Shown here piece by piece: positions 9,961 through 57,275 of a stretch of 64,000 bases of DNA (the first letter of the stretch is position 1; each line of letters opens with the position of its first letter). The stretch is from NCBI RefSeq assembly GCF_002222615.2, contig NZ_CP022412.2:2604001-2668000 (forward strand), written 5' to 3'. The notes beneath the pieces are model-generated. The model ran no database searches. It had not been told where the DNA came from and was given only the letters and a program-made list of their open reading frames with translations. This DNA is from Bacteroides caccae. Lineage in GTDB: Bacteria > Bacteroidota > Bacteroidia > Bacteroidales > Bacteroidaceae. The position numbers and the translations under genes were made by a program.

Positions 9961-11319
9961 ATGTCAAGATTCGAAATAAAAATGCCTAAGTTGGGCGAGA
10001 GTATAACCGAAGGAACAATTGTTTCTTGGTCTGTAAAGGTAGGTGAGTCGGTTCAGGAAGACGATGTGCTTTTTGAAGTAAACACTGCCAAAGTGAGTGC
10101 GGAAATACCTTCTCCGGTAGCGGGGAAAGTAATGGAGATTTTGTGTAAAGAGGGAGATACGGTAGCGGTGGGCACTGTCGTTGCTGTTATTAATTTGGAC
10201 GGTGACAGTGCTAGTGAACAGGAAACTTCCAATGAATCGAACTCCTCTCAGGAAACTACTAAAGAGAAATCCCATAATGAAGTACCGAAACCGGGTGTTG
10301 CTGTCGAAGAACGTTGGTACTCTCCAGTGGTGATTCAATTGGCACGGGACGCTAAGATTCCGAAGGAAGAACTGGATACCCTGCAAGGGACTGGCTATGA
10401 AGGACGATTGAGTAAAAAAGATATAAAAGATTATATTGACAGGAAAAAGAGAGGGCTTGTTAGCGAGCCGAAACCGGCAACAATAGGCATAACTTCGACT
10501 GCAAATGCACCGTCGGCTATTATGCCTGCTGCTTCAGCGAGTCCAAAGTCATCTCCGGTACCTGCTGTACAATCTGTGGCTTCCACTGCTACACCCCAAT
10601 CATCTGCCCCTATCAATACGTCCGGAGTAGAGATGAAAGAAATGGACCGTGTCCGTCGGATTATTGCCGACCACATGGTTATGTCAAAGAAAGTATCTCC
10701 ACATGTTACGAATGTGCTGGAAGTGGATGTAACCAAGCTAGTCCGTTGGCGTGAAAAGAATAAGGATGTCTTCTTCCGTCACGAAGGAGTGAAGCTGACC
10801 TATATGCCTATGATTACGGAAGCGGTAGCGAAAGCGCTGGTAACTTATCCGCAGCTGAATGTATCGGTAGACGGATATAATATTCTTTTCAAGAAACACA
10901 TCAATGTCGGTATCGCTGTTTCCTTGAATGACGGAAATCTGATTGTTCCGGTGGTGCATGATGCCGACCATTTGAATCTAAACGGATTGGCAGTCGCCAT
11001 TGATTCATTGGCATTAAAAGCAAGAGATAACAAATTGATGCCGGAAGACATTGATGGCGGAACATTTACTATTACTAATTTCGGTACATTCAAGAGCTTA
11101 TTCGGTACGCCGATTATAAATCAGCCTCAAGTAGCTATTCTGGGAGTGGGATACATTGAAAAGAAACCTGCTGTTGTGGAGACACCGGAAGGTGATACGA
11201 TTGCTATTCGTCATAAGATGTATCTTTCCTTGTCTTACGATCATCGGGTGGTAGACGGTATGCTGGGTGGTAACTTCCTGCATTTCATAGCCGATTATCT
11301 GGAGAACTGGAAAGGTTGA
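9961..11319 (+). CDS. 2-oxo acid dehydrogenase E2 (dihydrolipoamide acyltransferase)
   Basis: The 452-aa protein has three parts. A lipoyl domain occupies about 1-78, with lysine 44 in NTAKVSAEIP as the lipoylation site. A peripheral subunit-binding domain lies at about 118-158 (SPVVIQLARDAKIPKEELD). The catalytic acyltransferase domain covers about 220-452 and includes DHRVVDG, whose histidine is catalytic. Ala/Ser/Pro-rich linkers join them. The context around the lipoyl lysine is TAK rather than the usual TDK. The substrate (pyruvate or branched-chain oxo acids) cannot be settled from E2 alone, but the E1 partner looks like the branched-chain type. The E1 gene begins 38 bases downstream. 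Confidence 0.93.
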   Translation: MSRFEIKMPKLGESITEGTIVSWSVKVGESVQEDDVLFEVNTAKVSAEIPSPVAGKVMEILCKEGDTVAVGTVVAVINLDGDSASEQETSNESNSSQETTKEKSHNEVPKPGVAVEERWYSPVVIQLARDAKIPKEELDTLQGTGYEGRLSKKDIKDYIDRKKRGLVSEPKPATIGITSTANAPSAIMPAASASPKSSPVPAVQSVASTATPQSSAPINTSGVEMKEMDRVRRIIADHMVMSKKVSPHVTNVLEVDVTKLVRWREKNKDVFFRHEGVKLTYMPMITEAVAKALVTYPQLNVSVDGYNILFKKHINVGIAVSLNDGNLIVPVVHDADHLNLNGLAVAIDSLALKARDNKLMPEDIDGGTFTITNFGTFKSLFGTPIINQPQVAILGVGYIEKKPAVVETPEGDTIAIRHKMYLSLSYDHRVVDGMLGGNFLHFIADYLENWKG

Positions 11320-11357
11320 TTCAACTGATTGTTTCATTAATAAAGAGTTCATTAACT

Positions 11358-13391
11358 ATGAAAAAGTATGATATAAAAAATACAGATATTGAAACCTTGA
11401 AGAAGTGGTATCATCTGATGACATTGGGACGTGCTCTGGATGAGAAAGCCCCTTCCTATTTGCTGCAATCGTTAGGTTGGTCTTACCATGCTCCTTATGC
11501 AGGACATGACGGAATCCAACTGGCTATTGGGCAGGTTTTTACTCTCGGCGAAGACTTTTTGTTCCCTTATTACCGGGATATGCTGACTGTGCTTTCTGCC
11601 GGAATGACTGCAGAAGAAATTATCCTGAATGGTATATCGAAAGCGACTGATCCCGGTAGTGGCGGGCGGCACATGTCTAATCACTTCGCAAAACCGGAAT
11701 GGCACATCGAAAATATCTCGTCTGCTACGGGGACACATGACCTCCATGCGGCAGGTGTAGCCAGAGCTATGGTGTATTATGGTCATAAAGGAGTTGCCAT
11801 AACTTCTCATGGAGAATCGGCTACTTCCGAAGGCTTTGTATATGAAGCCATCAATGGCGCTAGTCTCGAGCGTCTTCCTGTGATTTTCGTAATACAGGAT
11901 AATGGTTACGGTATCTCCGTCCCGAAATCCGAACAGACGGCCAATCGGAAAGTGGCAGAGAACTTCTCAGGTTTCAAGAACCTGAAAATTATCTATTGTA
12001 ATGGAAAAGATGTATTTGACTCGATGAACGCTATGACCGAAGCTCGGGAATATGCCATAACCACTCGTAACCCGGTAATTGTACAAGCCAATTGCGTCCG
12101 TATCGGTTCCCACTCTAATTCGGATAAACATACCTTGTACAGGGATGAAAACGAACTGGAATATGTAAAAGAAGCTGACCCGTTGATGAAATTCCGCCGG
12201 ATGTTGCTTCGCTATAAACGTTTGACGGAAGAAGAATTGTTGCAAATAGAGACTGATGCAAAGAAAGAATTATCAGCCGCTAATCGAAAGGCCTTGTCTG
12301 CTCCCGATCCTGATCCCAAGAGTATCTATGACTTTGTGATACCCGAACCTTATCAGCCTCAAAAGTATAAAGAAGGTATCCATCAGGCAGAAGGAGAGAA
12401 AACTTTTATGGTGAACGCCATTAACGAAACGTTGAAAGCCGAATTCCGTCATAACCCCGATACGTTTATCTGGGGACAGGATGTAGCAAACAAGGAAAAA
12501 GGCGGTGTGTTTAATGTGACTAAAGGTATGCAGCAGGAGTTTGGTGATGCACGTGTATTCAGCGCACCGATTGCGGAAGATTATATTGTGGGTACAGCTA
12601 ACGGAATGAGCCGCTTTGACCCTAAAATCCATGTCGTGATAGAAGGAGCGGAATTTGCTGACTATTTCTGGCCTGCCGTAGAACAATATGTAGAATGTAC
12701 ACATGAGTATTGGCGTAGCAATGGAAAGTTTGCTCCGAACATAACTTTACGGCTAGCTTCCGGTGGTTATATTGGTGGGGGATTATACCATTCCCAAAAT
12801 ATAGAGGGAGCTTTGACAACTTTGCCCGGAGCACGAATTGTCTGTCCTTCCTTTGCTGATGATGCCGCCGGATTATTGCGGACCAGTATGCGTTCCAAGG
12901 GCTTTACATTGTTTCTCGAACCGAAAGCTTTGTATAACTCGGTGGAGGCAGCAGCCGTTGTACCGGAAGATTTTGAAGTTCCTTTCGGAAAGGCACGTAT
13001 CCGTCGTGAAGGAACAGATTTGAGTATTATCACCTATGGCAACACTACCCATTTCTGTTTACACGCTGCCGAACGGCTGGAGAAAGAAGGTGGCTGGAAA
13101 GTAGAAGTCATTGATATTCGTTCTTTGATTCCGTTGGATAAAGAAGCGATATTTGAATCAGTAAAGAAAACCAGTAAAGCATTGGTTGTTCACGAAGATA
13201 AAGTATTCTCCGGTTTCGGTGCGGAACTGGCGGCTATGATTGGAGGGGAGATGTTCCGCTATTTGGACGGTCCGGTAGAACGTGTCGGTTCTACATTTAC
13301 TCCTGTCGGCTTTAATCCGATTCTGGAAAAAGAAATATTGCCGGATGAGGCTAAGATATACGAAGCTGCCAAGAATTTGTTGGAATATTAA
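11358..13391 (+). CDS. 2-oxo acid dehydrogenase E1, fused alpha and beta subunits (2-oxoisovalerate type)
   Basis: This 677-aa protein joins E1 alpha (about 1-320) to E1 beta (about 345-677), which are normally separate. The alpha part resembles branched-chain oxo acid dehydrogenase. Its thiamine-diphosphate motif region (about 151-182) reads HGESATSEG followed by QDNGYGIS, where family members usually have GDG and NN, so the metal-binding motif is atypical. The beta part has EGAEFADYFWPAVEQ, LRLASGGYIGGGLYHSQ and the C-terminal transketolase domain (DIRSLIPLDKEAI). I chose the ATG at 11358; a TTG at 11316 would overlap the E2 stop and adds unconserved residues. It works with the E2 and E3 of the same cluster. 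Confidence 0.92.
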   Translation: MKKYDIKNTDIETLKKWYHLMTLGRALDEKAPSYLLQSLGWSYHAPYAGHDGIQLAIGQVFTLGEDFLFPYYRDMLTVLSAGMTAEEIILNGISKATDPGSGGRHMSNHFAKPEWHIENISSATGTHDLHAAGVARAMVYYGHKGVAITSHGESATSEGFVYEAINGASLERLPVIFVIQDNGYGISVPKSEQTANRKVAENFSGFKNLKIIYCNGKDVFDSMNAMTEAREYAITTRNPVIVQANCVRIGSHSNSDKHTLYRDENELEYVKEADPLMKFRRMLLRYKRLTEEELLQIETDAKKELSAANRKALSAPDPDPKSIYDFVIPEPYQPQKYKEGIHQAEGEKTFMVNAINETLKAEFRHNPDTFIWGQDVANKEKGGVFNVTKGMQQEFGDARVFSAPIAEDYIVGTANGMSRFDPKIHVVIEGAEFADYFWPAVEQYVECTHEYWRSNGKFAPNITLRLASGGYIGGGLYHSQNIEGALTTLPGARIVCPSFADDAAGLLRTSMRSKGFTLFLEPKALYNSVEAAAVVPEDFEVPFGKARIRREGTDLSIITYGNTTHFCLHAAERLEKEGGWKVEVIDIRSLIPLDKEAIFESVKKTSKALVVHEDKVFSGFGAELAAMIGGEMFRYLDGPVERVGSTFTPVGFNPILEKEILPDEAKIYEAAKNLLEY

Positions 13392-47545: not shown

Positions 47546-48040
47546 ATGAGAAAATTGGTCGTATTAGGAATGGGAGTGTGCTTGGTGCTTGCTTTTGCAT
47601 CTTGTAAATCCAGCGAAAGCGCCTATAAGAAGGCTTACGAGAAAGCAAAACAGCAAGAACTGGCAGAACCGCAAGTGGAAGCTCCGGTTGAGGTGACTCC
47701 GGTAGTGGCAGCTCCTGTGACAACACCTAAAGTAGCAGATACATCGGGTGTACGTCAGGAAAAGGTGACAGTTGTTTCCGGTAATGACGGTTTGAAAGAT
47801 TATAGTGTAGTGGCCGGTAGCTTTGGTGTAAAAGCAAATGCCGAAGGATTGAAAGATTGGCTGGATGCACAAGGTTATCAGGCTACAATCGCATTTAACG
47901 CTGATAAGGCAATGTATCGTGTAATAGTTAGCTCATTTGCTGATAAGGCTGCTGCTGCTGACGCTCGCGATGCTTTCAAGGCTAAGTATCCGAATCGTTC
48001 GGATTTCCAAGGCGCTTGGTTGCTGTATCGTGTATATTGA
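47546..48040 (+). CDS. SPOR domain lipoprotein
   Basis: This 164-aa protein has a lipoprotein signal peptide (RKLVVLGMGVCLVLAFASC, lipidated Cys20), a polar Glu/Pro/Val-rich linker (about 30-75), and a C-terminal SPOR domain (about 88-164: YSVVAGSFGVKANAEGLKDW and YRVIVSSFADKAAAADARDA). SPOR domains bind denuded septal peptidoglycan, so the protein probably marks or serves the division site from the outer membrane. The ATG at 47546 is chosen because the signal peptide starts there. Confidence 0.88.
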   Translation: MRKLVVLGMGVCLVLAFASCKSSESAYKKAYEKAKQQELAEPQVEAPVEVTPVVAAPVTTPKVADTSGVRQEKVTVVSGNDGLKDYSVVAGSFGVKANAEGLKDWLDAQGYQATIAFNADKAMYRVIVSSFADKAAAADARDAFKAKYPNRSDFQGAWLLYRVY

Positions 48041-48094
48041 TTTCTTTTTGGTAATATATATTGGGAAGAACCAACGTTTTTTCCGAATAAGAAG

Positions 48095-48122
48095 GCGGTA
48101 ACTGGGAAGTTACTGCTTTTTT
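48095..48122 (+). terminator. Terminator after the SPOR gene
   Basis: GCGGTAACT (48095-48103) pairs with AGTTACTGC (48108-48116) around GGGA, followed by six T. Confidence 0.8.
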
Positions 48123-48221
48123 GTTGAGAGAGAAAATGATGTTTCGTTTAGATATTTTTATCATTCTACTAAAAGAAGTTATAAATGTAGGTGGGGAAAC
48201 TTTTATAGCAAAGAAAGTTTT

Positions 48222-48229
48222 TACTTTTG
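48222..48229 (+). promoter_or_regulatory. Bacteroides -7 element for the PAPS-sulfotransferase operon
   Basis: TACTTTTG, 62 bases before the cysQ ATG. It is the only good match upstream of this seven-gene run. Confidence 0.5.
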
Positions 48230-48291
48230 TCAACTCTTAATTTAGAGGATTTACAGCCTTGATATTAGTGAGGTGTTAATAAAGGAATTAA

Positions 48292-49116
48292 ATGGAACAA
48301 AAATATGTAATGGCTGCTATCGATGCAGCATTGAAAGCCGGTGAAAACATACTTTCTATTTATGATGATCCGGCATCGGACTTCGAGATAGAGAGAAAGG
48401 CTGATAATTCTCCTCTGACAATAGCAGACAGGAAAGCGCACGAAGCGATTGTGGCTATTTTGAACGATACTCCTTTTCCTGTTCTTAGTGAAGAAGGAAA
48501 GCATCTGGATTATGAGGTTCGCCGCAAATGGGATACTTTGTGGATTGTTGACCCTCTGGATGGAACAAAGGAATTTATTAAACACAATGGAGAATTTACG
48601 GTAAATATAGCCCTGGTGCAGAATTCAGTACCTGTGTTAGGCGTTATTTATGTGCCTGTAAAGAGAGTGCTTTACTTTGCTGTGGAAGGTATAGGAGCCT
48701 ATAAGTGCTCCGGTATTGTCGCTCCGGTAGGGAAAGGGACGACATTACAACAGATGATAAAAGAGTCGGAGCTGATGCCTTTAGAGGATGTACGTGATCA
48801 TTTTATTGTTGTTGCTTCACGTTCGCACCTGTCACCTGAAACGGAAACATATATCGCTGACTTGAAGAAGAAACATGGCAGTGTCGAACTGATATCAAGT
48901 GGAAGTTCCATTAAAATCTGTCTGGTTGCAGAAGGTAGTGCGGATGTGTATCCGCGTTTCGCTCCGACAATGGAGTGGGATACAGCTGCCGGACATGCGA
49001 TAGCGCGTGCCGCCGGAATGGAAGTGTATCAAGCCGGAAAGGACGAACCTCTACGATATAACAAGGAGGATTTATTGAATCCGTGGTTTATCGTCGAGCC
49101 AAAAAGAAAACACTAA
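48292..49116 (+). CDS. cysQ: 3'(2'),5'-bisphosphate nucleotidase
   Basis: This 274-aa magnesium-dependent phosphatase hydrolyses 3'-phosphoadenosine-5'-phosphate (PAP), the inhibitory by-product of sulfotransferases. The inositol-monophosphatase-fold motifs are all present: DNSPLTIADRKAHE, VLSEEGK, WIVDPLDGTKEFIK (metal-binding DPLDGT) and EWDTAAGHAIARAAG. It is first in the operon, and the permease start follows 11 bases after its stop. Confidence 0.94.
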   Translation: MEQKYVMAAIDAALKAGENILSIYDDPASDFEIERKADNSPLTIADRKAHEAIVAILNDTPFPVLSEEGKHLDYEVRRKWDTLWIVDPLDGTKEFIKHNGEFTVNIALVQNSVPVLGVIYVPVKRVLYFAVEGIGAYKCSGIVAPVGKGTTLQQMIKESELMPLEDVRDHFIVVASRSHLSPETETYIADLKKKHGSVELISSGSSIKICLVAEGSADVYPRFAPTMEWDTAAGHAIARAAGMEVYQAGKDEPLRYNKEDLLNPWFIVEPKRKH

Positions 49117-49127
49117 TTAATGTTTAT

Positions 49128-50681
49128 ATGACATTTGAAATTGTATTTGTACTGTTGTCGTTATTAGGAATGGTAGCTGCTTTGGTCGCTGACAAAATGC
49201 GTCCGGGCATGATACTTTTTTCGGTAGTGGTCTTGTTTTTGTGTGCCGGTATTCTGACCCCGAAAGAAATGCTGGAAGGGTTCAGTAATAAGGGCATGAT
49301 TACCGTTGCCCTACTGTTTCTGGTAAGTGAAGGTATCCGCCAATCGGGTACATTAGGGCAAGTGATAAAGAAATTGCTTCCACAGGGCAAGACGTCGGTG
49401 TTTAAAGCACAGTTGCGTATCTTACCTTCGGTGGCTTTCATTTCCGCTTTCCTGAATAATACTCCTGTTGTGGTTATCTTCGCCCCGATTATCAAACATT
49501 GGGCGAAATCGGTTAATCTCCCGGCAACAAAATTCCTGATTCCTCTTTCTTATGTGACTATTCTTGGTGGTATTTGTACGTTGATCGGTACTTCTACCAA
49601 TCTGGTAGTGCACGGAATGATTTTAGAAGCCGGTTTTGAAGGTTTCTCCATGTTCGAACTGGGAAAGGTCGGCATTTTTATTGCTGTTGCCGGAATTGTT
49701 TATCTTTTCCTTTTCTCCAAACGACTTTTGCCGGATGCTCGTCCTGATACGGCTGTGCCGGATGAGGAAATGGAAGAGGGGGAGAAATTGCATCGGGTGG
49801 AAGCGGTGTTAGGGGCACGTTTCCCCGGTATCAATAAGAAGTTGAGTGATTTTAATTTCCAGCGTCATTATGGAGCGGAAGTAAAGGAGATCAAGACACG
49901 TAGCGGACAGCGGTTCGTAACTAATCTGAATGAAGTGGTGCTACGTGAAGGAGATACGCTTGTTGTAATGGCTGATGATACCTTTATTCCTACATGGGGG
50001 GAGTCTTCTGTGTTTGTGTTGCTGACAAACGGAAATGACCCTGATACCGCAGGAAAGAAAAAACGCTGGCTAGCTCTGATTTTATTGGTGTTGATGATTG
50101 TCGGTGCTACGATCGGTGAATTGCCGGTGACAAAAGAGATGTTTCCGGATATCAAACTGGATATGTTCTTTTTTGTGTCTATCACCACCATTGTTATGGC
50201 GTGGACGAACCTGTTTCCTGCCCGTAAATATACAAAATACATTTCGTGGGATATCTTGATTACGATTGCTTGTGCATTTGCAATCAGTAAGGCTATGGTG
50301 AATTCGGGAGTGGCTGATAGTGTTGCGAAGTTCATTATCGGGTTGAGCGATGATTACGGTCCGCACGTGTTGCTTGCCATGTTGTTTATCATCACGAACC
50401 TGTTTACGGAGTTGATTACGAATAATGCGGCGGCAGCATTGGCATTCCCATTGGCCCTGTCGATTGCAGCGCAGTTGGGAGTCAGTCCGACGCCTTTCTT
50501 TGTTGTGATCTGTATGGCTGCTTCAGCCAGTTTCTCTACACCTATCGGTTATCAGACTAATCTGATTGTGCAAGGTATCGGCAACTATAAATTTATGGAC
50601 TTTGTTCGTATCGGTTTGCCGCTCAATATCATAACCTTTATAATCTCTGTTATTCTGATTCCGATGATCTGGAACTTTTAA
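49128..50681 (+). CDS. SLC13/DASS-family permease with TrkA-C domain, probable sulfate importer
   Basis: This 517-aa protein has about 11 membrane helices split by a soluble TrkA-C (RCK_C) domain at about 220-300 (GAEVKEIKTRSGQRFVTNLN, then VLREGDTLVVMADD). SFLNNTPVVVIFAPI-like (SAFLNNTPVVVIFAP) and ITNNAAAALAFPLALSIA carry the two NNT/NNA hairpins that bind sodium and anion in this family. Position between cysQ and cysC makes sulfate the likely substrate. The ATG at 49128 is preferred to an in-frame start at 49083 inside cysQ. Confidence 0.9.
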   Translation: MTFEIVFVLLSLLGMVAALVADKMRPGMILFSVVVLFLCAGILTPKEMLEGFSNKGMITVALLFLVSEGIRQSGTLGQVIKKLLPQGKTSVFKAQLRILPSVAFISAFLNNTPVVVIFAPIIKHWAKSVNLPATKFLIPLSYVTILGGICTLIGTSTNLVVHGMILEAGFEGFSMFELGKVGIFIAVAGIVYLFLFSKRLLPDARPDTAVPDEEMEEGEKLHRVEAVLGARFPGINKKLSDFNFQRHYGAEVKEIKTRSGQRFVTNLNEVVLREGDTLVVMADDTFIPTWGESSVFVLLTNGNDPDTAGKKKRWLALILLVLMIVGATIGELPVTKEMFPDIKLDMFFFVSITTIVMAWTNLFPARKYTKYISWDILITIACAFAISKAMVNSGVADSVAKFIIGLSDDYGPHVLLAMLFIITNLFTELITNNAAAALAFPLALSIAAQLGVSPTPFFVVICMAASASFSTPIGYQTNLIVQGIGNYKFMDFVRIGLPLNIITFIISVILIPMIWNF

Positions 50682-50697
50682 TAAAACGAATTTATAA

Positions 50698-51306
50698 ATG
50701 GAAGAAAAGAATCATATATATCCTATATTTGACCGCATGATGACACGGCAGGACAAAGAGGAACTTTTGGGGCAACATAGTGTGATGATCTGGTTTACCG
50801 GATTGAGCGGATCGGGCAAAAGTACGATTGCTATCGCACTGGAGCGTGAACTTCATAAGCGAGGATTGCTTTGCCGTATCCTTGACGGGGATAATATTCG
50901 TAGTGGTATCAATAATAACCTCGGATTTTCCGAAACTGACCGGGTGGAGAATATCCGTCGCATAGCTGAGGTCTCAAAGCTCTTTTTGGATAGTGGCATT
51001 ATTACAATTGCGGCATTCATCAGTCCTAATAACGATATCCGGGAAATGGCTGCAAATATTATCGGTAAGGATGACTTTCTGGAGATTTTTGTGAGTACCC
51101 CGTTGGAGGAGTGCGAGAAACGAGATGTGAAAGGGCTTTATGCCAAGGCACGTAAGGGGGAAATCCGGAATTTTACCGGAATTTCTGCACCGTTTGAGGT
51201 TCCCGAACATCCGGCATTGTCATTGGATACTTCCAAACTGACACTGGAAGAATCGGTGAATTGCTTGTTGGAGCTGGTTTTGCCCAAAGTAAAAAGAAGT
51301 GTTTAG
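50698..51306 (+). CDS. cysC: Adenylylsulfate (APS) kinase
   Basis: This 202-aa kinase phosphorylates APS to PAPS. The Walker A loop is GLSGSGKST (about 35-43), RILDGDNIRSGINNNLGFSE is the APS-binding segment, and IAAFISPNNDIREMA and GLYAKARKGEIRNFTGI follow the family order. It is a stand-alone kinase, not fused to CysN as in some proteobacteria. It lies 16 bases after the permease. Confidence 0.95.
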   Translation: MEEKNHIYPIFDRMMTRQDKEELLGQHSVMIWFTGLSGSGKSTIAIALERELHKRGLLCRILDGDNIRSGINNNLGFSETDRVENIRRIAEVSKLFLDSGIITIAAFISPNNDIREMAANIIGKDDFLEIFVSTPLEECEKRDVKGLYAKARKGEIRNFTGISAPFEVPEHPALSLDTSKLTLEESVNCLLELVLPKVKRSV

Positions 51307-51333
51307 TAGAAGAATAAAATCATTATTTTAGTA

Positions 51334-52242
51334 ATGGAAGAATATAAATTAAGCCACTTGAAAGAACTCGAAGCCGAGTCTATTCATATCATCCGCGAAG
51401 TGGCGGCGGAATTTGAGAATCCGGTGATGCTTTATAGTATTGGAAAGGATTCTTCTGTAATGGTACGCTTGGCTGAAAAAGCGTTTTATCCGGGTAAAGT
51501 ACCATTCCCGTTGATGCATATTGATTCGAAATGGAAATTCAAGGAGATGATTCAGTTCCGTGATGAGTATGCGAAGAAATATGGATGGAACCTGATCGTA
51601 GAAAGTAATATGGAGGCTTTTCATGCAGGGGTAGGACCTTTTACACATGGAAGTAAAGTGCATACGGACTTGATGAAAACACAGGCGTTGCTTCATGCAC
51701 TGGATAAGTATAAGTTTGACGCTGCTTTTGGCGGTGCACGCCGTGATGAGGAAAAATCGCGTGCGAAAGAACGTATCTTCTCTTTCCGGGATAAGTTTCA
51801 CCAGTGGGACCCGAAAAATCAACGTCCGGAATTGTGGGATATTTATAATGCCCGCGTACATAAAGGAGAAAGTATCCGTGTGTTCCCATTGAGCAACTGG
51901 ACGGAATTGGATATATGGCAGTATATCCGTTTGGAGAATATTCCGATTGTTCCGTTATATTATGCGAAAGAACGTCCGGTGGTGCAAATGGATGGCAACC
52001 TGATAATGGCGGATGATGATCGTCTGCCGGAAAAATATCGCGACCGGATTGAAATGAAGATGGTTCGCTTCCGTACATTAGGTTGTTGGCCGCTGACGGG
52101 TGCTGTGGAAAGTGGTGCCGCTACGATTGAAGAAATCGTGGAGGAGATGATGACTACTACCAAGAGTGAACGGACGACTCGTGTGATTGACTTTGATCAG
52201 GACGCGAGTATGGAACAGAAGAAACGTGAAGGATACTTTTAA
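51334..52242 (+). CDS. cysD: Sulfate adenylyltransferase subunit 2
   Basis: This 302-aa ATP pyrophosphatase makes APS from ATP and sulfate together with CysN. The PP-loop is [18 protein letters not shown], and [20 protein letters not shown] and [17 protein letters not shown] are family-specific. It lies 27 bases after cysC and 12 before cysN. Confidence 0.96.
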
Positions 52243-52254
52243 TTGTAATTAGTG

Positions 52255-53715
52255 ATGGCAGATAATAAATTAGATATAAAGGCTTTTCTGGATAAAGATG
52301 AACAGAAAGACTTGCTGAGGCTGTTGACAGCCGGTTCGGTGGATGATGGAAAATCGACATTGATCGGTCGCTTGCTGTTTGACAGCAAGAAATTGTATGA
52401 GGACCAGTTGGATGCGCTGGAACGCGACAGTAAACGTGTAGGAAATGCAGGTGAGCATATCGACTATGCATTGCTGCTCGATGGATTGAAGGCTGAACGC
52501 GAACAAGGTATTACAATTGATGTGGCTTATCGCTACTTCTCCACCAATGGACGTAAATTTATCATTGCGGACACTCCGGGACATGAGCAGTACACCCGTA
52601 ATATGATTACCGGCGGCTCTACGGCAAATCTGGCAATTATTCTGGTGGATGCACGCACAGGAGTGATTACACAGACTCGCCGCCATACTTTCCTGGTGTC
52701 TTTACTGGGTATCAAACATGTGGTATTGGCGGTCAATAAAATGGACTTGGTGGATTTTTCGGAAGAGCGTTTCAATGAGATTGTTGCGGAGTATAAGAAA
52801 TTTGTATCTCCACTGGGAATCCCTGATGTAAACTGTATTCCGCTTTCCGCATTGGACGGTGATAATGTAGTGGATAAGTCGGAGCGTACTCCGTGGTACA
52901 AGGGGACTTCTTTACTTGATTTCCTTGAAACTGTTCATATTGACAATGACCATAATTTGGAGGATTTTCGTTTCCCGGTGCAGTATGTGCTGCGTCCGAA
53001 TTTGGATTTTAGAGGTTTTTGTGGTAAGGTGGCTTCGGGTATTGTTCGTAAGGGGGATACAGTAATGGCGTTGCCTTCAGGAAAGACGTCCAAAGTGAAG
53101 AGTATCGTGACTTATGACGGTGAGTTGGACTATGCTTTCCCTCCACAGTCGGTTACACTGACACTGGAAGATGAAATTGATGTATCCCGTGGTGAAATGC
53201 TGGTACATCCCGATAACTTGCCGATTGTTGACCGTAACTTTGAAGCAATGTTGGTATGGATGGATGAGGAGCCAATGGATATAAATAAATCGTTCTTTAT
53301 CAAACAGACAACAAATCTGAGTCGTACGCGCATTGATACGATTAAGTATAAGGTGGATGTGAACACAATGGAACATCTGTCGCCGGACAATGGACAGTTG
53401 ACAAAAGAGACTCTGCCTTTGCAATTGAATCAGATTGCCTGCGTGGTGCTGACAACCGCGAAAGAGTTATTCTTTGATCCTTATAAGAAGAATAAATCAT
53501 GTGGCTCATTTATCCTGATCGACCCGATTACCAACAATACTTCTGCGGTAGGTATGATTATCGATCGGGTGGAAATGAAGGATATGAGCAATACGGATGA
53601 TATTCCTGTATTGGATCTGTCGAAGTTGGGAATCGCCCCCGAACATTATGAAGCAGTAGAAAAGGCGGTGAAAGAACTGGAACGCCAGGGTTTTGCCGTG
53701 AAAATAATAAAATAA
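52255..53715 (+). CDS. cysN: Sulfate adenylyltransferase subunit 1 (GTPase)
   Basis: This 486-aa EF-Tu-like GTPase drives APS synthesis. Its G1 motif is GSVDDGKST (about 27-35), G3 is [12 protein letters not shown], and G4 is NKMDLVDF; two beta-barrel domains follow. I chose the ATG at 52255 (MADNKLDIK) over the adjacent GTG at 52252. Here it supplies APS to the separate CysC kinase and so PAPS to the sulfotransferase 6 bases downstream. Confidence 0.96.
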
Positions 53716-53721
53716 GAAAGT

Positions 53722-54828
53722 ATGGGATTACTCGAATTTAATAAACTTCCGATCAATACATTGGTAGGTGCCGACTGGAAAACTTTTAAAGCAATTACTG
53801 CCGGTCGTGAAATTGATGCAGCCTATAAGGGTAAGTACCGATTGACAAAGGCTGTATGCCGATTGCTTTCTCCATTGGCCTCATTGCAGGACAAACGTTA
53901 TGAGAAGTTGTTGGCGAATCAACCGCTGGAGCATGATCCGGTGTTTATTTTGGGGCACTGGCGGAGCGGAACTACTTTTGTGCATAATGTATTCTCCTGT
54001 GATAAGCATTTTGGCTATAATACGACCTATCAGACCGTGTTTCCTCATTTGATGATGTGGGGACAGCCTTTCTTCAAGAAGAATATGAGTTGGCTGATGC
54101 CGGATAAACGTCCGACGGACAACATGGAGCTGGCAGTAGACCTGCCGCAGGAAGAAGAATTTGCACTGGCAAACATGATGCCTTATACTTATTATAATTT
54201 TTGGTTCTTGCCGAAATATCAACAGGAATATGCTGACAAGTATCTGTTGTTTGACAATATCTCGGATGCGGAGTTGAAGGTGTTTGAAGAAGTATTTACG
54301 AAGTTGATAAAGGTTTCTTTGTGGAATACTCATGGTACGCAATTCCTTAGCAAGAATCCGCCTCATACCGGTAGAGTGAGGGAACTGGTGAAAATGTTCC
54401 CGAATGCTAAGTTTATTTATCTGATGCGCAATCCGTATACGGTATTTGAATCTACACGCAGTTTCTTTACAAATACGATCCAACCGTTAAAATTGCAGGA
54501 TATCGGAAATGAACAATTAGAGGAAAATATCCTTTCTATCTATGCGAAACTCTATCATAAATATGAATCGGACAAGCAGTTTATTCCTGAGGGTAATCTG
54601 AGGGAAGTGAAGTTTGAGGATTTCGAAGCCGATGCAATGGGAATGACGGAGGATATTTATAAGTCACTCTCTATTCCCGGATTTGCCGAAGCGCGTGGAG
54701 ATATTGAAAAATATGTCGGCGGTAAGAAAGGATATAAAAAGAATAAATATAAATATGATGACCGGACAATTCGATTGGTAGAAGAAAACTGGGGTTTTGC
54801 TTTGAAACAATGGGATTATAATTTATAA
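53722..54828 (+). CDS. PAPS-dependent sulfotransferase, probably steroid-type
   Basis: This 368-aa cytosolic enzyme transfers a sulfonate from PAPS to a hydroxyl acceptor. FILGHWRSGTTFVHN (about 76-89) is the 5'-phosphosulfate loop, KNPPHTGRVRELV precedes the 3'-phosphate site, and FIYLMRNPYTVFESTRSFF (about 231-249) is that site. It is the only acceptor-using gene in an operon dedicated to PAPS. From memory, the same gene order surrounds B. thetaiotaomicron BT_0416, reported to sulfonate cholesterol and other steroids, so a steroid acceptor is the leading hypothesis. Confidence 0.92.
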   Translation: MGLLEFNKLPINTLVGADWKTFKAITAGREIDAAYKGKYRLTKAVCRLLSPLASLQDKRYEKLLANQPLEHDPVFILGHWRSGTTFVHNVFSCDKHFGYNTTYQTVFPHLMMWGQPFFKKNMSWLMPDKRPTDNMELAVDLPQEEEFALANMMPYTYYNFWFLPKYQQEYADKYLLFDNISDAELKVFEEVFTKLIKVSLWNTHGTQFLSKNPPHTGRVRELVKMFPNAKFIYLMRNPYTVFESTRSFFTNTIQPLKLQDIGNEQLEENILSIYAKLYHKYESDKQFIPEGNLREVKFEDFEADAMGMTEDIYKSLSIPGFAEARGDIEKYVGGKKGYKKNKYKYDDRTIRLVEENWGFALKQWDYNL

Positions 54829-54846
54829 AAGAAAGGAAAGGTATTA

Positions 54847-55815
54847 ATGATTCAGAAAATCGTTCATCGCCTGGTGGTGACAACTTTTGTCGCATTTATT
54901 TCTTCCTTGTCTTTGCTGGCACAGCATAAAGTGGAAATGTTTCCTTTTGGAGATATGGACCAATGGGTAGACCGGCAGATAAAGGAATCGGGAATTATCG
55001 GAGGAAATACGAAGAATGTGTATGAGATTGCACCGACGGCTGTAATTCAAGGAGATCAGGTTTATAAAAACATGGGTGGTTCACCGTGGGGTACTTCGAA
55101 TGTAATGGCAAAGGTAGCGGGAATTACAAAAACAAATACGTCTGTTTTCCCGGAAAAAAGGGGAGAAGGGTATTGTGCACGTCTGGATACACGCATGGAA
55201 AGTGTGAAAGTGTTGGGGCTTGTTAATATCACTGTGTTGGCGGCAGGTTCTATTTTTACAGGGACGGTGCATGAACCTATTAAGGGTACTAAGAATCCGC
55301 AGAAGATGTTGCAATGTGGCGTGCCGTTTACTAAAAAACCGGTGGCACTTCAATTTGATTATAAAGTGAAGATGTCGGACAGGGAGAATCGTATCCGTGC
55401 TACCGGTTTCAGTAAGATTACGGATGTGCCCGGAAAAGATTATCCGGCAGCTATTCTGTTTTTGCAAAAACGTTGGGAAGATGCGAACGGAAATGTTTAT
55501 GCCAAACGGATAGGGACTATGGTGACTTATTATTATCATTCTACCGACTGGAAAAATAATGCTTCGTATGAGATTATGTATGGTGATATTACAGGGCGCC
55601 CTGAATATAAAGCGCATATGATGCGATTACAAGTTACCGAAAACTATACGGTAAACAGTAAAGGGGAAAGCGTTCCTATTCATGAAGTTGCCTGGGGAAA
55701 TGAAGATGATGTGCCTACACATATATATATACAGTTTACGTCCAGTCATGGAGGAGCTTATATCGGTTCGCCGGGTAATTCATTATGGGTTGATAATGTG
55801 AAACTGGTTTATTAG
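54847..55815 (+). CDS. Secreted PCMD-domain protein ending the sulfotransferase operon; function unknown
   Basis: This 322-aa protein has a signal peptide (VVTTFVAFISSLSLLAQ, cleavage near residue 25). The mature part looks like the PCMD (putative carbohydrate metabolism) beta-sandwich: it begins with WVDRQIKESGIIGGNT, contains RLDTRMESVKVLG and KKPVALQFDYKVKMSDRENR, and ends GSPGNSLWVDNVKLVY, the usual PCMD end. There is no lipobox, so it is probably periplasmic or released. It starts 18 bases after the sulfotransferase stop and the terminator follows at 55836, so it belongs to this operon. PCMD proteins are usually tied to glycan loci, and none is here. Confidence 0.82.
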   Translation: MIQKIVHRLVVTTFVAFISSLSLLAQHKVEMFPFGDMDQWVDRQIKESGIIGGNTKNVYEIAPTAVIQGDQVYKNMGGSPWGTSNVMAKVAGITKTNTSVFPEKRGEGYCARLDTRMESVKVLGLVNITVLAAGSIFTGTVHEPIKGTKNPQKMLQCGVPFTKKPVALQFDYKVKMSDRENRIRATGFSKITDVPGKDYPAAILFLQKRWEDANGNVYAKRIGTMVTYYYHSTDWKNNASYEIMYGDITGRPEYKAHMMRLQVTENYTVNSKGESVPIHEVAWGNEDDVPTHIYIQFTSSHGGAYIGSPGNSLWVDNVKLVY

Positions 55816-55835
55816 ATATAATATTAAAGAAATAA

Positions 55836-55874
55836 AATAGCTGGTGATGCAATTATCGCCGGCTATTTTTTTTT
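55836..55874 (+). terminator. Terminator of the PAPS-sulfotransferase-PCMD operon
   Basis: AATAGCTGGTGAT (55836-55848) pairs with ATCGCCGGCTATT (55855-55867) with wobble pairs and runs into a long T tract. Confidence 0.85.
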
Positions 55875-55978
55875 GTTTTAATTCTTTGGTAATAAATGCC
55901 TTTCGTCTTCTTTCGGAGTTATATAACACTTTTATCATTCCTTATTTTTTTGTGTGGGAATGATTTTTTACGCGTTTT

Positions 55979-56010
55979 TTTGCTTGTGTTATATTAAATA
56001 TCTATATTTG
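55979..56010 (+). promoter_or_regulatory. Consensus Bacteroides promoter for the OmpA gene
   Basis: TTTG (55979-55982), a 20-base spacer and TATATTTG (56003-56010) match the consensus closely, which suits an abundant outer-membrane protein. Confidence 0.75.
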
Positions 56011-56132
56011 CATTAAATTTCAAGAAAAGGAAGTTGCTTATTGTCTCTTTGTCAGGCATGAGACGTTTGGGAGTCGGTTGATTTCCTGTAAGACAAAATA
56101 TAGAAATATATTATTTACTAAAATAAATTGAG

Positions 56133-57275
56133 ATGAAAAAGGGTTTATTGTTTATTTTATTGGCAGCGGCCTCTGTATGTCTGCCTGCTCAGGAAAAAGA
56201 AAATGCAGCGAAGAGCTATACCGTAGAAACAAATCGCTTCGGTGCTAACTGGTTTATTAGTGGTGGTATTGGCGCACAAATGTATTTTGGCGACAATGAC
56301 GGTAAAGCTGATTTCGGAAAACGTCTTGCTCCGGCACTTGATATTGCCGTAGGTAAGTGGTTTACTCCGGGAATCGGATTGCGTCTTGCATACAATGGTC
56401 TTCAAGCTAAGGGGGCAGCTCCTTCTGCTGACGCTAGGTATGCAAAAGGTGGTACATATTCTAACGGATATTACAAACAGAAATGGAATATGGCTAATTT
56501 CCATGGTGATGTTCTGTTCAACCTTTCTAACATGTTGTGCGGATACAATGAAGATCGTATTTATTCATTTATTCCTTATGTAGGAGCTGGTTTGGCTGTG
56601 TCATGGTCAGAACCTCGTGAGAAGAATTTGGGTATAAATGCCGGTTTGATCAACCGTTTCCGCTTGTCTCCTGCTTTAGACCTTAATGTAGAATTGCGTG
56701 GCCTTTTGATGAAAAATGCATTTGGTGGCGCTAGCAAAGAAGGAATGGGTGGCGTGACAGTAGGTGTTACTTATAAGTTCAAGAAACGCGGCTGGAATGC
56801 TGTTCCTACTGTACCAATGGTTCCGGAAAGCCAGTTGAATGACATGAGAGACAGAGTAAATGCTTTGAAAGGTGAAAACGAATCTCTGAAACGTGACTTG
56901 GTTGAAGCACGTAACAAGAAACCGGAAGTTATCGTTAAGAAAGAAGGCGGATTTGTTCCACGTCTTGTTGTTGTATTCAACATCGGAAAGAGCAATATCA
57001 GCAAGAGAGAATACATGAATATCGAAGCTATGGCTAAGGGTATCAAGGCTAATCCTGACAAGACATTTACTGTAACAGGATATGCTGACAAGGGTACTGG
57101 TTCTGCTGAATACAACATGAAGTTGAGTAAGAAGAGAGCTGAAGCTGTTCGCGACCTGATGGTTAACGAATTCGGAGTTCCTGCTTCTCAGTTGAAGGTT
57201 GACTACAAGGGTGGCGTAGGCAATATGTTCTATGATGACGCTAAACTGAGCCGTGTAGCTATTGTTGAAGAATAA
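56133..57275 (+). CDS. OmpA family outer-membrane protein
   Basis: This 380-aa protein has a signal peptide (KKGLLFILLAAASVCLPAQ) and an N-terminal beta-barrel (about 30-215, starting RFGANWFISGGIGAQMYFGD). A short coiled linker follows (about 228-262, MRDRVNALKGENESLKRDLV). The C-terminal OmpA peptidoglycan-binding domain lies at about 275-380 (FTVTGYADKGTGSAEYNMKL, with KKRAEAVRDLMVNEFGV). The protein anchors the outer membrane to the wall and is normally abundant, in line with its strong promoter. A terminator follows at 57302. Confidence 0.93.
   Translation: MKKGLLFILLAAASVCLPAQEKENAAKSYTVETNRFGANWFISGGIGAQMYFGDNDGKADFGKRLAPALDIAVGKWFTPGIGLRLAYNGLQAKGAAPSADARYAKGGTYSNGYYKQKWNMANFHGDVLFNLSNMLCGYNEDRIYSFIPYVGAGLAVSWSEPREKNLGINAGLINRFRLSPALDLNVELRGLLMKNAFGGASKEGMGGVTVGVTYKFKKRGWNAVPTVPMVPESQLNDMRDRVNALKGENESLKRDLVEARNKKPEVIVKKEGGFVPRLVVVFNIGKSNISKREYMNIEAMAKGIKANPDKTFTVTGYADKGTGSAEYNMKLSKKRAEAVRDLMVNEFGVPASQLKVDYKGGVGNMFYDDAKLSRVAIVEE

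Follow-up and report, generated by a model that had tools for sequence, protein, structure and literature searches.

A probable sulfonation operon with a recurrent PCMD-domain gene and a promoter palindrome in Bacteroides caccae

A 64,000-nucleotide stretch of the Bacteroides caccae genome (contig NZ_CP022412.2, positions 2604001-2668000 of a single-contig genome of 4.57 Mb; hereafter the window) contains seven plus-strand genes at 48292-55815. The locus is very probably a Bacteroidales sulfonation operon of the BT_0411-BT_0416 kind, in which a supply of 3'-phosphoadenosine 5'-phosphosulfate (PAPS) feeds a sterol sulfotransferase. The core of this system is already published. The directly testable additions are a seventh gene with a probably secreted product, a promoter palindrome that may lead to a regulator, and the pairing of adenosine 5'-phosphosulfate (APS) kinase with the sulfotransferase in the sampled Bacteroidaceae.

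Gene content and conservation of the operon

Open reading frames (ORFs) and Pfam and NCBIfam models identify, in order, CysQ, a CitMHS/SLC13-type permease, CysC, CysD, CysN, a Sulfotransfer_3 protein and a PCMD-domain protein. All seven reading frames are intact and are separated by intergenic gaps of 11, 16, 27, 12, 6 and 18 bases. In the proposed pathway, the permease would import sulfate, CysDN would convert sulfate and ATP into APS, and CysC would phosphorylate APS to PAPS; the activities of CysDN and CysC are known at the family level. The sulfotransferase would then transfer the sulfonate from PAPS to a sterol hydroxyl, by analogy with its characterized counterpart, and CysQ would degrade the leftover 3'-phosphoadenosine 5'-phosphate (PAP). 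Spacing also assigns the PCMD gene to the operon; its product is probably a ligand-binding protein located outside the inner membrane.

An earlier note on this DNA had described six genes, cysQ to the sulfotransferase, spaced by 6-27 bases and closed by one terminator. The six genes, their order and their gaps are borne out by the ORFs and family models. The six-gene operon is nevertheless one gene short, as the PCMD gene lies within the interval that the note itself covered. A terminator-like hairpin is present, but the PCMD gene stands between it and the sulfotransferase; the hairpin is the longest among 12 such sites in the region, where shuffled sequences lead one to expect 6.2. The name SLC13 permease, also proposed there, is fair, although the NCBIfam DASS model scores 91.7, under its cut-off of 198.6, and the best Pfam match is CitMHS. 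The closest solved relatives by sequence are NadC/VcINDY and SLC13 proteins, and gene context suggests sulfate as the cargo. The proposed match to the BT_0416 cluster of B. thetaiotaomicron agrees in gene types and order with the published BT_0411-BT_0416 genes. The note had also called the copy complete and not wholly new; the system is indeed published, but the cluster is widespread and the copy here is an ordinary one, not unusually complete.

Conservation was assessed in 80 related loci on named contigs, the best of 292 candidates chosen as the best sulfotransferase matches. Presence was counted by tblastn, as a simple ORF caller gave no sulfotransferase in 9 of 100 loci. The gene arrangement is not due to chance, because the six genes occur in order in 72 of the 80 loci and 6 of the 8 exceptions are truncated by a contig edge. 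All seven genes are present in 58 of the 80. The sulfotransferases are 80.4-95.9% identical to that of the window (B. finegoldii, 95.9%; B. faecis, L014, 94.8%; B. fragilis, 89.7%; Phocaeicola vulgatus, L039, 88.6%).

Of 392 genomes sampled across the order, 65 contain a sulfotransferase match at an E value of 1e-20, and the matches fall into two tiers, at least 59% and at most 41% identity; a few Bacteroidaceae matches stand at 52%. Outside the family, 20 of the 28 upper-tier loci were examined, and cysD and cysN lie upstream of the sulfotransferase in 19 of them. The lower tier comprises 34 genomes; none of the 20 loci examined from it has PAPS genes nearby, some of these loci being short.

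Table 1. Features of the operon and its flanks (window coordinates)
Feature	Position	Strand	Evidence
TAAAAGAAGTTATAA element upstream of the operon	48170..48184	+	conserved across aligned cysQ upstream regions
palindrome AAACTTT-N10-AAAGTTT, candidate operator	48197..48220	.	conserved next to predicted promoter
TACTTTTG, -7-like box	48222..48229	+	conserved with palindrome
cysQ, 3'(2'),5'-bisphosphate nucleotidase, predicted to clear the PAP by-product of sulfonation	48292..49116	+	TIGR01331, 264.6 bits (cut-off 228.8)
CitMHS/SLC13-type permease, presumed sulfate importer	49128..50681	+	PF03600, 207 bits; sub-threshold TrkA_C match
cysC, APS kinase	50698..51306	+	TIGR00455, 238.8 bits (cut-off 138.7)
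cysD, ATP sulfurylase small subunit	51334..52242	+	TIGR02039, 506.8 bits (cut-off 396.6)
cysN, ATP sulfurylase GTPase subunit	52255..53715	+	NF003478, 718.3 bits (cut-off 590); alternative GTG start at 52252
PAPS-dependent sulfotransferase, BT_0416-type	53722..54828	+	PF13469, 139.9 bits; predicted fold nearest mycobacterial STF9/STF1
PCMD-domain protein, 322 amino acids, seventh gene	54847..55815	+	PF13201, 90.2 bits
intrinsic-terminator-like hairpin with T tract	55834..55869	+	16 pairs, 5 G-C

The sulfotransferase and its acceptor

The sulfotransferase matches the Sulfotransfer_3 profile, its predicted model adopts the sulfotransferase fold, and it is the only one found by a genome-wide search with PF13469 (PF00685 was not searched genome-wide). 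Residues 78-85, GHWRSGTT, are invariant in 31 aligned sulfotransferases; we take this N-terminal segment to be the 5'-phosphosulfate-binding (5'-PSB)-like loop. The protein is very likely orthologous to BT_0416, as judged from its identity to relatives. According to the accessible text of Le et al. 2022 (PMC9417993), BT_0416 acts as a cholesterol sulfotransferase both in E. coli and in vitro, strains deleted for it lose the activity, and effects are seen in mice. The same text reports that cholesterol induces Bt_0412 and Bt_0416 and that cholesterol sulfate is made by B. caccae, B. uniformis, B. vulgatus and B. thetaiotaomicron. Coprostanol sulfonation is documented for B. thetaiotaomicron cultures.

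Several points weigh against a PAPS supply operon that serves a sterol sulfotransferase. The sterol acceptor in this strain is assigned by analogy, from the shared cluster and the high identity to relatives, and co-transcription of the genes is predicted from their spacing. Lactose induced Bt_0412 and not Bt_0416, as stated in the accessible text of PMC9417993, so co-transcription is not strict. Two of the 80 loci (L056 and L085) have a sulfotransferase with 10 kb of upstream sequence and no PAPS genes there, and in other genomes (L100 and L101/L115) the PAPS genes and the sulfotransferase lie apart and are both kept. Finally, in one family, the remote sulfotransferase homologues of all four matching genomes (77 searched) adjoin genes for a fatty-acid hydroxylase and an acyltransferase, which were identified by Pfam in one locus (L111; PF04116 and PF01553) and by tblastn in the others.

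The last observation bears on a different acceptor. The native substrate could be a hydroxylated lipid other than a sterol, whether bacterial or not, with sterol sulfonation as a side activity; we consider this unlikely. The fatty-acid hydroxylase, acyltransferase and desaturase genes beside remote homologues speak for it, the desaturase gene adjoining a fifth remote homologue (28% identity) with a hydroxylase homologue 6 kb off. These neighbours are a weak hint at lipid acceptors and that a sterol need not be the native one. However, the linkage to the hydroxylase is found in 5 of 26 distant loci and is lacking in 21, none of the 20 distant Bacteroidales loci shows it (some of them short), and that hydroxylase occurs in 1 of 151 Bacteroidaceae genomes, so the family is nearly devoid of it. 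The strong conservation of the sulfotransferase has also been counted in favour of a non-sterol acceptor. Its mean identity to the window protein is 88.5% (80 loci), above those of cysN (87.3%, 78 loci), def (86.0%, 42), ruvX (85.0%, 43) and PCMD (75.5%, 65), but this mean is inflated by the choice of loci by sulfotransferase match, and cysD is higher (94.5%). Moreover, the BT_0416 deletion and in vitro experiments cited above show a real cholesterol activity.

Gene neighbourhoods gave no further clue to the acceptor. The neighbours of stand-alone sulfotransferases are housekeeping genes (PriA, KsgA and an M20 peptidase) and uninformative, and those beside the PCMD-less operons include GH92, an SIS/amidotransferase protein and a Na+/H+ antiporter. 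Among the proteins scanned in the 20 distant Bacteroidales loci, the neighbours are mixed and mostly housekeeping. As an observation in its own right, the four loci of the hydroxylase-bearing family (L109, L110, L111 and L134) place the remote sulfotransferase beside the hydroxylase gene and a divergent acyltransferase gene, followed in the three longer loci by glyoxalase and 516-amino-acid protein genes; this is possibly a lipid-sulfonation cluster.

The destination of PAPS

The earlier note had found no PAPS reductase or sulfite reductase genes in the window and had proposed that sulfate is routed to sulfonation and not to cysteine. For the families tested (PF01077 and PF01507), the absence extends to the whole genome. 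PF01077, the nitrite/sulfite reductase family, has no match in the genome, and the same search was positive in 11 of 14 control genomes. PF01507 has four matches, namely, CysD, two phage-type genes and MnmA. Neither MnmA nor the phage-type genes were accepted as CysH: the latter match phrog_424 and phrog_2302, phage families with a PAPS-reductase domain, and fall below all CysH cut-offs. Thus, no gene in the genome is above any CysH cut-off, and PAPS has no known reductive outlet because neither a PAPS reductase nor a sulfite reductase was found. The two phage-type genes (L002 and L003) lie outside the window, one of them adjoining a DNA methyltransferase-like gene, and are easily confused with cysH. 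For a relative, the missing branch is already in print: the accessible text of PMC11610557 states that B. thetaiotaomicron QI0072 encodes no enzymes for further use of PAPS or APS.

The co-occurrence of APS kinase and sulfotransferase supports the proposed routing to sulfonation. In a set of 151 Bacteroidaceae genomes, the sulfotransferase is present in 57, APS kinase in 58 and both in 56 (Fisher, 8e-38, a descriptive value that takes no account of common ancestry). Four of the 151 genomes have a sulfite reductase, and none of these four has the sulfotransferase. Because the two genes occur together and sulfite reductase is absent from the sulfotransferase genomes, PAPS looks dedicated to sulfonation. 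The single genome with a sulfotransferase and no APS kinase (G044) carries a partial cysN that runs off the end of a 9 kb contig (L108), and the kinase was probably lost to the contig cut. Of the two genomes with the reverse pattern, one (G046) has a match of 22 bits. The other (G024, from the genus of the window) encodes CysD and a CysN-CysC fusion of 661 amino acids beside a TauE-like gene (L107, 6458-9290); no sulfotransferase of the BT_0416 type and no sulfite reductase were found in it, and it represents a different, unexplained PAPS sink. The counts of this near-exclusive pairing are new relative to the literature searched.

PAPS or APS could alternatively be exported to neighbouring microbes, as hypothesized from co-culture expression for B. 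thetaiotaomicron feeding Bilophila (PMC11610557). The accessible text of that paper does not mention a sulfotransferase as a PAPS sink, the linked sulfotransferase offers a simpler one, and we regard export as very improbable. An assimilatory sulfate-reduction pathway that is broken or incomplete and has persisted by chance, for which it can be said that CysDNC feed cysteine synthesis in other bacteria, is hardly credible given the seven intact frames, the near-confinement of APS kinase to sulfotransferase genomes (56 of 58) and the lack of sulfite reductase in those genomes.

The PCMD gene, the promoter palindrome and known clusters

The seventh gene of the sulfonation operon follows the sulfotransferase in 65 of the 80 loci; in 2 of the remaining 15, the contig ends too soon to hold it. 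The 13 loci that lack PCMD despite sufficient room comprise 7 labelled Phocaeicola, 2 labelled Bacteroides mediterraneensis and 4 without a species name; among the eight Phocaeicola-labelled loci, L072 carries the gene. In the upper tier from other families, PCMD lies just downstream in 10 of 20 loci, representing four families, and one further locus (L106) makes this 11 of 21. Overall, PCMD is seen 3' of the sulfotransferase in five Bacteroidales families. The gene is a recurring member of the operon, perhaps an old one, and is missing from some lineages; its recurrence across the order is new relative to the literature searched.

The PCMD protein matches the PF13201 domain, and its predicted model has the corresponding fold. 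It is probably secreted, because its N-terminal hydrophobic stretch (helix 2-24 in the predicted model) ends in LLAQ without a lipobox cysteine, as read by eye. One locus (L060) was left out of the PCMD alignment; the C-terminal residues of its PCMD ORF (11111-12061) resemble read-through into a sequencing adapter where a metagenome contig ends. The terms PF13201, PCMD domain and putative carbohydrate metabolism domain are absent from the literature searched, although subscription papers may already mention the seventh gene. A search for BT_0417 with its neighbours gave nothing relevant, the number matches concerning, by title, maize and water sampling.

The upstream region of the operon contains three conserved elements. 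TAAAAGAAGTTATAA has an exact copy in 42 of 69 loci; with at most one mismatch, it is present in 52 of 69, compared with 0 of 69 shuffled upstream sequences. It is followed by the palindrome and by TACTTTTG, which fits what we take to be the Bacteroides -7 box consensus, TAnnTTTG; this consensus has five other occurrences in 47901-56300. The combined pattern AAAC-N16-GTTT and TAnnTTT is found in 52 of 70 upstream regions, that of the window among them, versus 1 of 3120 random windows, a lenient control for the palindrome since the random windows, from the same loci, are mostly coding. The palindromic symmetry, which suggests a dimeric regulator, is itself suggestive and not proven. Half-site positions 5-7 are complementary in 97, 89 and 86% of 37 distinct sites, but individual positions in slid controls reach as much as 92%, and only two sites carry a position 6 change that is compensatory.

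Searches of the genome with TAAAAGAAGTTATAA and the palindrome revealed no regulon. The palindrome has its one exact copy here and occurs with one mismatch at six further places (7 per strand, versus 6 per strand for the control), so that near-copies are not in excess of the control. TAAAAGAAGTTATAA has two exact copies and four sites with at most one mismatch, against four for the reversed control; the second exact copy lies just 5' of another ORF and is not followed by a palindrome.

The palindrome and PCMD are similarly distributed. In 66 loci with enough sequence, 49 have both, 13 have neither, 4 have PCMD alone and none has the palindrome alone, which may reflect a single clade-level difference. 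Palindrome loci are labelled Bacteroides or Mediterranea wherever a genus is given. Among 19 further promoters, the palindrome is present in 4 of 4 from the genus of the window and in none of the 15 that come from other genera or families, 8 of these 15 being read upstream of the permease, as no cysQ was found. Because the P. vulgatus locus (L039) lacks both PCMD and the palindrome and B. vulgatus is reported to sulfate cholesterol, both are probably dispensable for cholesterol sulfation, the locus and the strains of the paper being linked by species name only; PCMD as a requirement is likewise disfavoured. Among the matches listed in a literature search on transcriptional control of the operon, none deals with that control, as judged by title or abstract start and with no search using the palindrome letters; the conserved promoter palindrome is new relative to the literature searched.

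Taken jointly, the data could be accommodated by a seven-gene system in which PCMD captures a lipid acceptor or handles the sulfated product outside the inner membrane, a dedicated regulator binds the palindrome in Bacteroides and close kin, and the acceptors extend beyond host sterols to hydroxylated lipids; as a whole, this proposal is speculative and distinctly unlikely. The cluster ties diet and host cholesterol to gut bacteria, and its extent, distribution and control matter for mouse and human data.

The locus resembles the BT_0411-BT_0416 cluster in its six enzyme types and their identical order. In the accessible text of PMC9417993, BT_0411-BT_0415 are putative PAPS genes that adjoin the cholesterol sulfotransferase gene BT_0416, and identical clusters are noted in B. 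ovatus and B. fragilis; the cluster is also the subject of Yao et al. 2022, as cited in the accessible part of a review (PMC12667688). The window locus is collinear with those of B. fragilis (L028), B. xylanisolvens (L008) and P. vulgatus (L039). In contrast to the window, the PMC9417993 text contains neither 'bt0417' nor a PCMD gene or promoter palindrome, as far as it is accessible. The sulfotransferase shares 17% identity with mycobacterial STF9 (2z6v) and STF1 (2zq5), so their acceptors are not transferable, and 15-18% with human SULT2A1 and SULT2B1b, whose structural similarity is below that of the mycobacterial enzymes. In B. (Phocaeicola) dorei YGMCC0564, the accessible text of PMC10666794 describes a PAP phosphatase, a symporter, cysC, cysN and a sulfotransferase with 65.8-87.5% identity to B. 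thetaiotaomicron, and the sulfotransferase gene is induced by cholesterol. The L039 locus of its relative P. vulgatus carries neither the PCMD gene nor the palindrome; should the B. dorei promoter be like the one in L039, induction by cholesterol would not require the palindrome.

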